Assembly (NCBI GenBank): GCA_012729725.1
Contig: JAAYCO010000009.1
Location: 1-59,014 of the forward strand
DNA: 59,014 nt
Direction: 5' to 3'
Origin: Planctomycetota bacterium
GTDB lineage: Bacteria > Planctomycetota > Phycisphaerae > SM23-33
Under the pieces are notes generated by a model, which made no database searches, was not told the origin of the DNA, and was given only the letters and a program-made list of their open reading frames with translations. This document shows positions 9,393 through 29,928 of this stretch, piece after piece (position 1 is the stretch's first letter; every line of letters begins with the position of its first letter). The translations under genes were made by a program, and so were the position numbers.

Positions 9393-11672
9393 ATGGCAAC
9401 AGCTAAGACCGTCTGGGGCATTGATGTGGGCCAGTGTGCCCTCAAAGCCCTGAAGCTCAGCAGTATCGACGGCGAGGTGCAGGTGGAAGCCTTCGATATC
9501 ATCGAGCACCCGAAGATTCTGTCGCAACCGGATGCCGATAGTCCACAGCTCATTCGCAACGCTCTTGAACAATTCCTGGCCCGCAACAACGTCACCGGTT
9601 CCACCGTGGTGGTGTCTGTTCCGGGAACGGCGTCCCTGGCGTGCTTCGTCAAGTTGCCGCCGGTTCAGAGCGCAAACATCGCCAAGATCGTCGGATACGA
9701 AGCCGAACAGCAGATTCCGTTTCCCATCGACGAGGTTATCTGGCGATGGCAGACGTTCCAGGACGCCGAGAGTCCCGATGTTGAAGTCGGCATTTTCGCC
9801 ATCAAGCGCACTGACATGTACGCGTCGCTCGAACACTTCTCGAACCTCGAGATAGCGGTGGACGCGGTGCAGATGGCGCCCCTGGCGCTGTACAACTTCA
9901 TGACGTACGACGAGCAGCTTGCCGAAGACGGCGCGACGCTGCTTGCGGACGTCGGCGCTGAAAAAACCGACCTGATCGTCGCCGACAAGGGCAGAATCTG
10001 GACCCGAACCATTCAGATCGGCGGAAACAGCTTCACCGAGGCGCTCGTGCGATCGTTCAAGCTGTCGTTCTCGAAGGCCGAGCGCCTCAAGCGCACTGCC
10101 GTCACCAGCAAGTACGCCAAGCAGATATTCCAGGCCATGAGGCCGGTCTTCGCCGACCTTGTGCAGCAGATTCAGCGGTCGGTAGGCAGATACACTTCGT
10201 TGCACCGCGAGACACGCTTCAAGAGGCTCATCGGGCTTGGCAACGGTTTTCGCCTTCCGGGTCTTCAGAAGTATCTGGAGCAGAACCTCAGCATTCCCGT
10301 CGTTCGAATCGACGCCTACAACAAACTCAAGGGCAGCGGCCCGGCGAACACGCCCATCTTCACCGAGAACATTATGTCGTTCGCGGTGGCGTACGGGTTG
10401 GCTATTCAGGGCCTTAACCAGACGGTTATCACCACCAACCTTCTGCCAAGCGAAATATCGCGGGCAAGATTGTGGTCGGGCAAGAAGCCCTTTTTCGCCG
10501 CTGCCGCGGCAGTGCTTCTTGCAACTCTGGCAGTGCCGGTCTGGCGCTCGTACAGCGACCTTGGCGCGCTGGAAGCAAATTCGGCGCTGGCGGTGGCAAG
10601 GTCCAGAGACAGCACCATCAGCAGGCTTCACCAGAACTACAACCAGTACGTCAACCAGGGGCGCGAAGAACAGCGAACGATCGAGCGCTTCGCCCAGATG
10701 TACGGCTACCACAACATCCAGCCGGCGATAATGAACATGATCTCGCAGTCGATCTCGCACGTGGCCAAAGACCAGCCGCGAATGACCGACGACGAGGCGC
10801 AGCGAGCCGCCGAACTGGACCGCATCAAGGCCATCGCCCGAGACCAGCGCAACATGATAGTTGTGGACCAGATACAGATGACGTATCTGCCCAACGTCGT
10901 CGGCGAGACGCTGCAGCCGAAGACAGCGACGCCAGCCGCGGCGGGTTCAGCAGGCGCGGCCGCCGACAATCGCAAGGCCCAGCGCGGGCTCAGGGTGGAA
11001 TTCACCGGCAGAACGCCGCTTAACCTTCAGAGCGCCGAGCGCATGCTTCGCGACCTGCTTGCCAGAAGCGAGGCGTTCTCGGCCAGGCCGCCATATCTTT
11101 CCGACGCCGCGCAGCGCGTGCTGAACATGCTTCCCAAGGCGCAGACGCCTCCGGTGGGCGTGGATCAGAGCGAGTGGACGGATTTCACAACCGCCGTCGC
11201 CGAAGGCAGGCTCGCCGCGGGAGCGACCTTGAACGACAACGCCAGCAAGTGCCTGAACATGATCGCCGAGGGCAGGGTTTCTTCGCCGCCCTTCGGCATC
11301 CCTGTTGAAGACTGGCAGGCGTTTGTCTCAGCCGCAAGAGACGGCAAGATTCCGTATCTGGCCTCGCCGATAAAGGTTGTCGAGTGGCACCTTATGGAGC
11401 GAAGCCAGCTTGCCGCCGCGGGACAGACGACGACCGGCACTCGAGCGCCGGCGCCTCGCCCCCGCGCGCCAGGCGTGGGCGCGCCGCTGGGAAACCCCGA
11501 TGAGATGGGCTGGGGCGGCGGCGGCGCAAGCGCCACCACCGAGGCGACAATCGCAATGCCCGACCCCATGTTCCCCGATGAGGATATGTCTTCTGACACG
11601 CAGTTCAGGATCGGCTGGATAATCGCCATAGAAAATGACGGCGTGCCGGCGATGCAGACATCACAGAAGTAA
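9393..11672 (+). CDS. pilM: PilM-like actin-fold pilus assembly protein with a PilN-like C-terminal extension
   Basis: A 759-residue protein. Residues 1-350 form an actin-like domain of the PilM type, including the opening WGIDVG, a phosphate-binding stretch LLADVGAEKTDL and a PilM-type IQIGGNSFTEAL. PilM is a cytoplasmic ring component of type IV pili and binds the short tail of PilN. Usual PilM proteins end near 350 residues. Here a membrane helix follows (about 366-384), then a coiled segment and a region around 480-570 with PilN-like features, suggesting a PilM-PilN fusion. Two 44-residue repeats lie at about 577-616 and 621-660, then a Pro/Ala/Gly linker. It heads a three-gene operon. 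The pilM domain is certain; the PilN part is inference. Confidence 0.85.
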   Translation: MATAKTVWGIDVGQCALKALKLSSIDGEVQVEAFDIIEHPKILSQPDADSPQLIRNALEQFLARNNVTGSTVVVSVPGTASLACFVKLPPVQSANIAKIVGYEAEQQIPFPIDEVIWRWQTFQDAESPDVEVGIFAIKRTDMYASLEHFSNLEIAVDAVQMAPLALYNFMTYDEQLAEDGATLLADVGAEKTDLIVADKGRIWTRTIQIGGNSFTEALVRSFKLSFSKAERLKRTAVTSKYAKQIFQAMRPVFADLVQQIQRSVGRYTSLHRETRFKRLIGLGNGFRLPGLQKYLEQNLSIPVVRIDAYNKLKGSGPANTPIFTENIMSFAVAYGLAIQGLNQTVITTNLLPSEISRARLWSGKKPFFAAAAAVLLATLAVPVWRSYSDLGALEANSALAVARSRDSTISRLHQNYNQYVNQGREEQRTIERFAQMYGYHNIQPAIMNMISQSISHVAKDQPRMTDDEAQRAAELDRIKAIARDQRNMIVVDQIQMTYLPNVVGETLQPKTATPAAAGSAGAAADNRKAQRGLRVEFTGRTPLNLQSAERMLRDLLARSEAFSARPPYLSDAAQRVLNMLPKAQTPPVGVDQSEWTDFTTAVAEGRLAAGATLNDNASKCLNMIAEGRVSSPPFGIPVEDWQAFVSAARDGKIPYLASPIKVVEWHLMERSQLAAAGQTTTGTRAPAPRPRAPGVGAPLGNPDEMGWGGGGASATTEATIAMPDPMFPDEDMSSDTQFRIGWIIAIENDGVPAMQTSQK

Positions 11673-11693
11673 GCAGGCCCACAGGAGTCCGCT

Positions 11694-13286
11694 ATGAATT
11701 TCATACGTGCAAATGCCTTCATCTTCTTGACGCTGGCGGTGGTGCTGGTGGTGGGCGGCGGCCTGCTGATTGTCAATTCCAGCGTCGGCGGCGATGTCGC
11801 GAAGATGATAAAAGACCTCGAAGCCGTCAGCGGAAAGATGATGGCGATCAACCGGCAATCAATCATAAACGAGGATGTCGTTGAGGCCGAGAAGCAGCGC
11901 GTCGTGACTATCCGACAACAGGCCGCGGAGCTTGACAAGGAACAGGTCGAGAAGAACAAGAACGCCTATCCCGTGCTTGAGCTTCCGATCTTCGAGAACG
12001 GCCAGGTGTCTCGCCACGTGCCCGCCTTCCCCGTCGATCTGGAACTGGATCGCATGCACGGCCTCAACAGCGCCTACCAGCGACTGCACCGCGAACGAAC
12101 CATGGCGCTGCTTAACGACCTTGGCCCGACGGTTCCGGCAACCGAAGAAGAAATCGCGCTCGAAGCCAAATCGCAGGAAGTGATACTGATGATGCAGCGC
12201 CCCGCCAAGCCTGCCGAGACGCCGGGCATGACGGGCGCGCCGACTCCGGCGCCTGCGATGCGGGGCCCGGGAATGCCCCCGGATATGCCTGATATGGATA
12301 TGGGCATGCCGGGGATGGCACCTCCTCGCGGCGCGAATCAAAGGTCCACCAGTCCGGTGGTTTATCCAAGCAGATCATCCGGAAACATGGCTCTGGGCGT
12401 GCGCGGCGGACAGGCCATTGATTCGGCTACGGCCGAGCAGGCGAAGCAACAGGCAAGAGACGTCCTATTGAGGCGAAAGGCCGAGAACGGCAAACTTTAC
12501 GCCGACGTGGCGGACATACTCAGCGAGGTTTCCTATCCCCGCAACGAACCAGTGGACCCGCCGTGGTCAACGCTGTGGGTCAAGCAGTACAAGCTGTGGA
12601 TCGCTTCGGACGTTGCTGCCGCCATCAAGGGCATTAATGATGAAGTACTCGACAAGCTGCCCGAAAATCAGCGCAACGTGATCAACGCTCCCATCAAGCA
12701 CTGGCTTAAGATCACGATCGACAACAACTACTTCTTCGGCGGCACGACTTCATCGTCTTCGTCGTCCAGAACGACCGCCGCAAAGAAACCTGCCGCGGGA
12801 TATGCCATGCCGGTTTATCCGCATGCAGGACGCGGTGGCATGCCTCCGGGCGGACCAGACATGTACGTCCCTGACGATATTGGAATGCCCCACGGTGAGA
12901 TGGCTGCGCCGGCTGATCCTTCTTCGAAAACCTACGACGTCACCGGAAGGCTTACCGACACCAATCAGGACATCATTCGTTACCAGTTCAGCGTGGTAAT
13001 GCCCAGCAGGCACATACAGAAATTCATGACCCGCCTGATGGACGGCAACTCGCAGGACTTCCGACGCTACCACACGATCCTGGAAACCAGCATCGAGCAG
13101 TTGCCCGCAACCTTGAGCGGATACTACTACGGAAACGACATGGTGGTGGTGGCTACGTTCACCTGCCAGTTTATGATGCTTCCGGTGTGGGCGCGCCCGC
13201 TGGCGCCCGAAGATTTCCTTCGCGGCCTGCATCCAACCGCACTGAGGAGCGAGGACCAGGCGCGAACAAACACGCCTCTGTACTGA
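11694..13286 (+). CDS. Single-pass membrane protein, possibly PilO-like
   Basis: This encodes 530 residues of no recognised family. One N-terminal membrane helix (about residues 7-27) has a very short cytoplasmic tail. A Lys/Glu/Gln-rich, probably coiled region follows to about 85. A Met/Pro/Gly/Asp-rich linker covers about 175-215, and a second is near 365-410. The C-terminal 110 residues are beta/alpha in character. The topology of a short tail, one helix, a coiled coil and a small C-terminal domain matches PilN and PilO, and the position after a PilM-like gene suggests a PilO-type partner. This is inference only. It starts 21 bases after the upstream stop, with AGGAG nearby. Confidence 0.7.
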   Translation: MNFIRANAFIFLTLAVVLVVGGGLLIVNSSVGGDVAKMIKDLEAVSGKMMAINRQSIINEDVVEAEKQRVVTIRQQAAELDKEQVEKNKNAYPVLELPIFENGQVSRHVPAFPVDLELDRMHGLNSAYQRLHRERTMALLNDLGPTVPATEEEIALEAKSQEVILMMQRPAKPAETPGMTGAPTPAPAMRGPGMPPDMPDMDMGMPGMAPPRGANQRSTSPVVYPSRSSGNMALGVRGGQAIDSATAEQAKQQARDVLLRRKAENGKLYADVADILSEVSYPRNEPVDPPWSTLWVKQYKLWIASDVAAAIKGINDEVLDKLPENQRNVINAPIKHWLKITIDNNYFFGGTTSSSSSSRTTAAKKPAAGYAMPVYPHAGRGGMPPGGPDMYVPDDIGMPHGEMAAPADPSSKTYDVTGRLTDTNQDIIRYQFSVVMPSRHIQKFMTRLMDGNSQDFRRYHTILETSIEQLPATLSGYYYGNDMVVVATFTCQFMMLPVWARPLAPEDFLRGLHPTALRSEDQARTNTPLY

Positions 13287-13380
13287 GCGTGTGCGATGAT
13301 CCGGAGCGGCCGGATCGAGTACGACTTGATCGAGTCAGACTGTAATCAGAGTTACTGAAACGATATGAGGAGGCCGTAGT

Positions 13381-15129
13381 ATGGCCAAAGGCGCTAATAG
13401 CGGCGGTGAAGTAAGCTTCGTCGAGAAGCACATAGAGAAGATGTTGCTGGGCCTGTGCATACTGCTGCTTCTCTGGGCGGTGATGCACTGGGTTCCCCAG
13501 TCGCCGCGCACCGTCAACGTCCTTACGCCCGCGGGTTCGTCCAGAACCAACGTTCCGCCGGACAAGGCAAACGAAAGCCTCAAACAGGGCGTCGAGAAGA
13601 TCTGGAGCCGATACGACCAGTTCAAAGCGCCACCTTCGCACCTCGTCGATTGGAAGAAGATGCTCAACGAACTGGCCGTCAACACGGTGGCCAATTATCC
13701 CGGCTTTCCCGACATCGGCGTAACGGGCACGAAGATCAGGGCCGTGGCCTCTGTCGAGCCCGGCGATCTGCCCACTCTCGAAGATGTCTGCAAGTCGCTG
13801 CCGGTTCCGCCGGCGCCAATCGGAAGACTCAAGGCCGTTCTTCCTCGCCCGCAGCAGCCCGAGGCGAAAATCGAAGACCGCCTGAGCACCACGCTGGCCG
13901 TGGTTTATCCGTGGCGAGACCTCATGCTCAAGTGGCATGAAGAGCTGCGCCGCCTTCCAGCGGTGCCGACGGTTATCGTTGGCGTTGAATGGCAGGTGCG
14001 CGAGGCCCCGCTTGACGGCGAATGGGGCGAGCCACGACCCGTCACGCAAACATGGTTGCCGCTGCTTGATAGCCAGAACAAGCCAATTCCGCCTTTCGCC
14101 CCCACGCCGGGCAACGCCGAGGAAATCAACCAGGCCATTCAGATCGCCGCACAGGTTCAGGCTTTCAGGCTTATCCCGCAGTTCGACGATATCTACGTGC
14201 CGGGGCTCGACTGGGTGTCGCCGCTGCACCTGGTGCCCGAAAACCCGCTTGTGACTTTCGGCGAACCGGTCACGCTGACCGTCGAACAGACGGGAATGGC
14301 GCCGATGCAGCAGCCCCGCCCGACCAACACGCCTTCACCGGAAATCATGATGGACGACATGGGCATGCCCATGGGACCGGACGGCATGCCCGCCGGAATG
14401 CCCGGCGGCAACACACGCGGCAGAACGCCCACAAGAACTCCGCCTCGTCGGCCTACTCCCCCGCCACCGGCGCCGGTCGAAAAGGTCAGGAAACTCGATT
14501 TCGCCTACGCCACCATACAGTCGCTTGATCAGCAGTTCGAGTCGGGCTTTGTGCTGGCCGTCCATCACGACAACACGATCAAGACGGGCGTACGATATCA
14601 GTATCGAGCCCGCCTGGTGCTAATTAACCCGCTGCTGGGCCAGGCGCCATACGTCCAGAACGCCCAGGAGGCGGGAATTACAACCGTCTCCACACAGTGG
14701 AGCCCATGGTCACAGGAACAGGTCCAGCCAAGCCAGACCCGCTTCTTCCTGGCTGGGCACAGCAGCGCCGCCCAAAAGATGACCCTCGCCCTCTACACGC
14801 ACACGCTGGGCCAGACGGTAGCCCATGAAGGATTCACCGCTCAACTGGGCGGGCTGATCGGGCACAAGAAGAAGGTCAATCTGCCCAACCCGATCAAGAT
14901 CGAGGGCGTGCCCGAAGTCAGCGAAGTCGAGGCGGACTTCGCCACCGACAACATCGTCGTTCGATTCGACTTCGACAGGAAGTTCATCCGCCCGGGCTCA
15001 GTGAATGTTGAAACAACCGCCGGCCTGCTGTACCTGGACAAGCACGGCCAGTTGCACTGGAGAATTCAGGCCGACGACACGAATTCGCAGGAATACAAGG
15101 ATCTCAAGAAGGCGGCATCGGGCAAGTAG
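13381..15129 (+). CDS. Single-pass membrane protein of the PilM-like operon, unknown family
   Basis: A 582-residue protein with a charged N-terminus and one membrane helix at about residues 20-38, so most of the protein should be periplasmic. A Met/Gly/Pro-rich linker lies near residues 320-365, like those in the preceding gene. The following region (about 370-430) contains alternating hydrophobic residues and a tyrosine/arginine-rich strand that could be an immunoglobulin or Fn3-like fold, but no family is recognised. AGGAGG precedes the ATG. It is the last gene of the operon and is followed by a terminator. A role in an inner-membrane pilus or secretion complex is inferred from context. Confidence 0.7.
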   Translation: MAKGANSGGEVSFVEKHIEKMLLGLCILLLLWAVMHWVPQSPRTVNVLTPAGSSRTNVPPDKANESLKQGVEKIWSRYDQFKAPPSHLVDWKKMLNELAVNTVANYPGFPDIGVTGTKIRAVASVEPGDLPTLEDVCKSLPVPPAPIGRLKAVLPRPQQPEAKIEDRLSTTLAVVYPWRDLMLKWHEELRRLPAVPTVIVGVEWQVREAPLDGEWGEPRPVTQTWLPLLDSQNKPIPPFAPTPGNAEEINQAIQIAAQVQAFRLIPQFDDIYVPGLDWVSPLHLVPENPLVTFGEPVTLTVEQTGMAPMQQPRPTNTPSPEIMMDDMGMPMGPDGMPAGMPGGNTRGRTPTRTPPRRPTPPPPAPVEKVRKLDFAYATIQSLDQQFESGFVLAVHHDNTIKTGVRYQYRARLVLINPLLGQAPYVQNAQEAGITTVSTQWSPWSQEQVQPSQTRFFLAGHSSAAQKMTLALYTHTLGQTVAHEGFTAQLGGLIGHKKKVNLPNPIKIEGVPEVSEVEADFATDNIVVRFDFDRKFIRPGSVNVETTAGLLYLDKHGQLHWRIQADDTNSQEYKDLKKAASGK

Positions 15130-15170
15130 GCGCCGAAGTTCAGCCCCGAGACGCCCCAAAACTTGCATGC

Positions 15171-15203
15171 AAAAACCCCTCGCACCCGCGGGGGGTTTTT
15201 GTT
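15171..15203. terminator. Bidirectional terminator between the PilM-like operon and the UPF0173 gene
   Basis: A stem of nine base pairs (15171-15179 with 15192-15200) has five A on the left and five T on the right. It can therefore end both the plus-strand operon and the minus-strand gene at 15216. Confidence 0.75.
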
Positions 15204-28869: not shown

Positions 28870-29928
28870 ATGATACTAGATTCGGTCATGGGCCTGTTTT
28901 CCCTGGATATGGGAATCGACTTGGGTACTTGCAATACCCTGGTTGCAGTCCGTGGGCAGGGCATCGTTCTTAACGAGCCGTCGGTGGTGGCCGTTAGGCG
29001 AGGCACTAACCGCGTTCTTCAGAACGGCAACGCCGTCGGGCTGATGGCCAAGGAAATGCTGGGCAAGACGCCCGGCTCTATCAGCGCCATCAGGCCAATG
29101 AAGGACGGCGTCATCGCCGACTTCGACATCACCGAGGCCATGCTGAGCTACTTCATCCGCAAGGCCCACGACCGTCGCAGTTTCTTCAAATTCCGCCCCA
29201 GAGTTGTCATTGCGGTTCCATCGGGCATTACCACAGTCGAGAAGCGAGCTGTGCACAACTCCGCCGAACGTGCGGGGGCAAGGAAGGTCTACCTTGTCGA
29301 CGAGCCCATGGCGTGCAGCATCGGCGCGGGGCTGCCGATCAACGAGCCGACCGCCAGCATGATCGTTGACATCGGCGGCGGCACAACGGAAGTCGCCATC
29401 ATCTCGCTGGCTGATATTTCCGTCTGCGAAAGCCTCCGCGTCGCAGGCGACGACATGGACGAAGCCATCGCCGCGCACATGCGCCGAACCTATAACCTTC
29501 TTATCGGCGAGCAGACTGCCGAATCAATCAAGTTGCACATCGGCTCGGCAGCGCCCATGGAGAAGGAAGAAACCATGGAGGTTCGCGGGCGGGACATGAT
29601 CTCCGGCCTGCCTCGAAAGACAATCGTCTCGTCAGAGGAAGTCCGCGAGGCCCTTAAGGAGCCGGTCGGCGCAATCATCGATTGCGTCACCCGCACCCTC
29701 GAGAAGGCCGAGCCGGAACTGGCCGCCGATCTTGTTGAAACCGGAATAGTCCTTGCCGGCGGCGGCGCGCTGCTGCGCGGCATGAACACCGTGCTGGCGA
29801 ACGCCACAGGCCTTAGCGTTCGCGTCGCCGACGACCCGCTTACCTGCGTCGCCAGAGGAACCGCCGTCTATCTTGAAAACCTCGACAGGTGGAAAGATAC
29901 GATGGAAAGCTCCGAGGACGACTTCTAG
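28870..29928 (+). CDS. mreB: Rod shape-determining protein MreB
   Basis: A 352-residue actin-fold protein of the MreB family, which forms membrane-bound filaments that guide peptidoglycan synthesis. The phosphate-1 motif is [12 protein letters not shown], the phosphate-2 motif is [12 protein letters not shown], and the adenosine motif is [12 protein letters not shown]. The segment [13 protein letters not shown] is typical. Domain order is intact. A second ATG 18 bases downstream (28888) is an equally good start. It follows the coiled-coil and 65-aa genes in what looks like one operon. No canonical mreC, mreD or rodA genes lie in the window. Confidence 0.92.

Follow-up and report, generated by a model that had tools for sequence, protein, structure and literature searches.

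A Planctomycete Operon with a PilM-PilN Fusion as the Probable Base of a Retractable Type IVa-like Pilus

The three-gene operon analyzed here, in which a PilM that runs on into PilN-like sequence is followed by two membrane proteins, is best explained as the alignment platform, seated in the inner membrane, of a retractable type IVa-like pilus, a reading to which we assign a probability of about 0.78. It corresponds in planctomycetes to the pilus gene cluster of the gut bacterium Akkermansia. It lies in a window of 59,014 nucleotides, which is contig C23 of a 3.2-Mb draft planctomycete genome (G000); the relatives matched to this contig come from the Phycisphaerae and from elsewhere in Planctomycetota. 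A sequence-only reading of the same DNA had proposed an inner-membrane platform for a pilus or secretion machine, and such a platform, serving a type IV filament, is supported by the PilM domain, the NLLP joint, the predicted PilO fold of the second protein (ORF2) and the gene order. The operon provides a phylum-wide, testable model of how planctomycetes build pili, a question raised by their surface fibers; in the open-access literature we found no paper on this operon in planctomycetes.

Structure and Conservation of the Operon

The three open reading frames, all on the forward strand and encoding 759, 530, and 582 residues, are exactly those first reported, and hydropathy places a membrane helix in each protein as had been claimed: at residues 363-387 of protein 1, at the N-terminus of ORF2 and at residues 13-41 of ORF3. 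With an AGGAG-type ribosome-binding site upstream of each of the three starts, and a strong intrinsic terminator for both directions past the third gene (15169-15202; folding energy -28 kcal/mol on the forward strand, z -4.3, and -20.3 on the reverse), these are real genes forming one unit. The terminator is missing from the list of a consensus scan because its T run sits within the stem. Among public Planctomycetota contigs, both ORF2 and ORF3 were found at 61 loci, and all 61 keep the order fusion-ORF2-ORF3, with the two genes adjacent downstream of the matched PilM, so that the trio is conserved in other genomes as well. Since ORF3 is matched in 82 of the 150 genomes of the class and the trio is adjacent in essentially all loci read, the three genes, judged by these matches, are conserved and not chance open frames.

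A PilM That Continues into PilN-like Sequence

Protein 1 (9393-11672, forward strand) begins with the PilM actin-like domain of type IVa pilus platforms (residues 1-340; 9393-10412), which is matched by PF11104 over residues 9-339 (6.6e-36) and by the PilM family TIGR01175 with 150 bits, above the cut-off of 133; the solved PilM chains that match it are 3jc8, 2ych, and 5eox. Alignment to PilM alone ends at residue 340, beyond which lies the signature NLLP (residues 349-352; 10437-10448); of 36 relatives, 35 carry it unchanged or nearly so. NLLP is the peptide by which PilN binds PilM. The best alignment of protein 1 to 5eou, an engineered chimera in which crystallized PilM is joined to the PilN peptide, passes through the NLLP of that chimera. 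The membrane helix follows (10479-10553) and then a PilN-like periplasmic region with a low-complexity tail (residues 388-759; 10554-11672). The family is poorly conserved beyond the helix and support for a PilN fold there is weak: the profile past the junction resembles GspL (68.8% over 42 columns), the PilN chain 3jc8_Na gives a weak profile match to the periplasmic region (E = 0.13), and the Pfam PilN family (PF05137) has no match to this region in 36 members of the fusion family.

On the evidence of its sequence, protein 1 is thus a PilM whose actin domain appears to continue into the N-terminal peptide and membrane helix of PilN and a putative PilN-like periplasmic region, much as first described, and the covalent joint between the two proteins is borne out by the motif, the helix and the register with both 5eou and GspL. 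A PilM-PilN fusion has precedents, namely GspL and the Amuc_1101-like proteins found across Planctomycetota.

Descent of the Fused Proteins and the Question of Type II Secretion

The model of Amuc_1101 of Akkermansia (NF045709) matches the fusion over residues 1-455 (8.6e-64, 216 bits), below its curated cut-off of 650 bits, which is passed in none of the 244 genomes of the phylum; long open frames that match this model are scattered across Planctomycetota. In a phylogenetic tree rebuilt after removal of eleven doubtful rows, which were ORFs on the wrong strand or with very long branches, the fused PilMs fall into a single clade (100/99) separate from both canonical PilM and GspL, and the members of the family group together as vertical descent would give. 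The tree does not place this clade nearer to canonical PilM or to GspL.

These relationships raise a question: Could the operon encode a type II secretion platform, with the fusion as GspL, ORF2 as GspM and ORF3 as a GspC-like protein? GspL has the same covalent architecture, being also a PilM-PilN fusion (PMC10191384), the C-terminal profile of protein 1 is GspL-like at the junction, and the T2SSL domain PF05134 matches weakly (0.00024). However, the actin domain is of PilM type, exceeding the PilM cut-off, whereas the GspL model TIGR01709 yields 30.5 bits against a curated 65; the fused proteins are separated in the tree from GspL of the same class; a distinct GspL/GspM-like locus is present on contig C193 of the same genome; and genomes having only the fused platform retain PilT, which is absent from type II secretion systems (PMC10191384). 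We consider this interpretation unlikely. The type II-like locus on C193 (G000; L020:3041-11906) contains a GspD-like ORF of at least 2955 residues that runs to the contig end, and in G002, G037, G056, G079, and G120 there are open frames with a secretin domain that reach 3868-4557 residues.

The genomes with the fused platform alone belong to genus g23 (G004, G024, G032, and G105). Each has one PilM, the fused one, a single secretin and PilT above cut-off, and canonical PilN (PF05137) was found in none of the four, which are drafts of 92-93% completeness, so that a gene may have been missed in any one. Their secretin was checked as the TPR type described below in G004 and G032; in G105 one contig carries both PilM and the secretin, the latter about 8 kb downstream. 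Because PilT is kept and type II secretion lacks it, this genus is most simply read as having a retractable pilus, of which the operon probably constitutes the whole base. Having a single platform, g23 makes the role of the operon directly testable.

The Second Protein Has a Predicted PilO Fold

The AlphaFold model of ORF2 (11694-13286, forward strand), built from an alignment of 59 sequences (pLDDT 80), has a membrane helix, a coiled coil and then an alpha-beta-beta-alpha-beta-beta core, which the secondary structure of the model places at residues 291-510 (12564-13223). Its top Foldseek matches are PilO of Pseudomonas aeruginosa (2rjz), Amuc_1100 (6lad) and PilO of Myxococcus xanthus, with probabilities of 1.00 for 2rjz, 0.99 for both 5uvr and 3jc8_Oa, and 0.98 for 6lad; the E-values are modest (0.02-0.1, the top three 0.02-0.05), while nearly all top matches are PilO and Amuc_1100. 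Structure prediction thus finds the ferredoxin-like fold of PilO in ORF2, and the idea that PilO had been replaced is unsupported, because ORF2 itself has the PilO/Amuc_1100 fold. The relation to PilO appears visible by structure only: Pfam gave no PilO (PF04350) or other consistent match in 59 relatives, hhalign against local PilO gave no significant match, and comparison with the PDB by sequence, alone or as a profile, returned nothing useful. The Amuc_1100 family NF038287 matches ORF2 weakly (0.0092; 15.4 bits, below the curated 180) and 8 of 35 relatives, at best with 1.6e-5.

Amuc_1100 is often described as a surface protein, with reports placing it on pili and in fractions enriched for outer membrane (PMC5332112, PMC10688800), and ORF2 and ORF3 might by analogy be exported proteins that decorate the surface or the pilus, without being platform subunits. 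This we regard as improbable, since ORF2 retains its N-terminal membrane helix together with the PilO fold, and the operon order with PilM is strict. The fold suggests that Amuc_1100-type proteins, which in Akkermansia have been studied for an immune-active role at the surface, originated as PilO-like subunits in the base of the pilus.

The Third Protein and the Secretin Partner

ORF3 (13381-15129, forward strand) occupies the place of PilP in the gene order, and its conserved position and topology, a single membrane helix followed by a large periplasmic part, make it a candidate coupler in the PilP position. Its C-terminal all-beta domain (residues 371-582; 14491-15126) is modeled with a pLDDT of about 95, and a fold search of this domain against the PDB gave no match with E below 0.1. 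No family match was obtained for ORF3; PilP was found neither by Pfam nor by hhalign nor by fold, hhalign against PilO was likewise not significant, and sequence comparison with the PDB, alone or as a profile, returned nothing useful. Of the two membrane partners first called unrecognized, ORF3 indeed matches nothing, whereas ORF2 has its weak Amuc_1100 family match and PilO fold.

The operon also has a dedicated secretin. In 31 of the 51 loci with room downstream, a secretin gene follows within 1.5 kb of ORF3; its product has about 850-1340 residues and carries a TPR region at its N-terminus. In our genome the orthologous TPR-secretin is detached from the operon and lies on contig C9 (L024); it shares 29-42% identity with the secretins found downstream in relatives and shows weak TPR matches together with PF00263. 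Two more genes recur past the TPR-secretin in family members (L063, L065-L067, L069, and L088), one for an exported protein of roughly 380-450 residues and the other for a multi-helix membrane protein of roughly 260.

Other Platforms and Motors

The genome of the window also carries canonical pilMNO at contigs C46 and C98. C46 and C132 share exactly 127 bases at their ends, and their union gives pilMNO, a PilP-like gene, a secretin, pilB, and pilC; C111 and C60 overlap likewise, yielding pilB-pilT-pilB-pilC with pilin-like genes. Such overlaps are the trace of an assembler at a graph junction and support adjacency, but could also reflect a branch. The C46/C132 join would put a histidine kinase and a response regulator inside the canonical pilMNOPQ-pilB-pilC locus. 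A complete canonical pilMNOPQ set serving the same apparatus, which the sequence-only reading took as evidence against itself, is found in part: canonical sets are present, but one of them appears to bring a secretin, pilB, and pilC of its own. That the fused platform is accessory or redundant, borrowing the motors and secretin of such a canonical machine, is highly improbable, for although it would accord with the canonical sets at C46 and C98 and with PilN (PF05137) matches in 115 of the 150 genomes of the class (35 having none), the apparent self-sufficiency of the C46/C132 set, the secretin type particular to the fused operon and the genomes that carry the fused platform alone all speak against it.

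PilB, PilC, and PilT are encoded at a locus other than the operon. PilT sits between two PilB genes, in PilB-PilT-PilB clusters; in G060, a closed genome, such a cluster and the operon are about 20 kb apart. Because our genome has other platforms, the motor serving the fused one is inferred from relatives.

Proposed Assembly and Comparison with Known Systems

For a retractable pilus, the cytoplasmic PilM ring of protein 1 would contact PilB/PilT and would be tied, by the PilN peptide and membrane helix of the same chain, to the periplasmic PilN-like domain, with which ORF2, as the PilO-type partner, would pair. ORF3, with one helix and a new beta-rich domain, would bridge the platform to the secretin in PilP's stead; the secretin would be the separate TPR-secretin (on C9 in our genome, immediately after the operon in most relatives with room), and the motors are probably those of the pilB-pilT-pilB-pilC-pilin locus. 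This arrangement shares with the canonical PilMNOPQ of type IVa pili the PilM domain, the NLLP peptide, the predicted PilO fold, a single-pass third protein and a secretin partner. Unlike the canonical system, it has PilM and PilN in one chain, no member of the PilP family and a secretin that bears TPRs, while ORF2 and ORF3 exceed PilO and PilP two- to threefold in size.

The nearest likeness is with the Amuc_1098-1102 cluster of Akkermansia muciniphila, described as type IV pilus genes (PMC5332112, PMC10688800, PMC4960237). Amuc_1098 combines TPRs with a secretin in 907 residues (PMC4960237), and because of this shared make-up the order and content of the planctomycete loci match Amuc_1101 (PilM-like), Amuc_1100 (with the PilO-like fold), Amuc_1099, and Amuc_1098; ORF3 is equated with Amuc_1099 by position only. 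The partners are less unrecognized than first thought, since NCBIfam already holds Amuc_1101 and Amuc_1100; relatives also supply a fourth partner, the secretin. In contrast to the Akkermansia cluster, the scores (216 and 15 bits) are far under the equivalog cut-offs of NCBIfam (650 and 180), and the secretin is detached in our genome. New here are a PilO fold predicted for the planctomycete ORF2, an unrelated protein in the PilP position, the detached secretin and the genomes having this as their sole platform.

More tentatively, Planctomycetota (and Verrucomicrobiota) may use a distinct subtype of type IV pilus, in which PilM-PilN and TPR-pilotin-PilQ would be covalent and PilP would be replaced by an unrelated protein of new beta-rich fold bridging the platform to the secretin, a generalization that we hold as conceivable rather than likely. 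Elsewhere on the contig of the operon lies a gene for MreB (28870-29928 of the window; TIGR00904, 3.5e-147).
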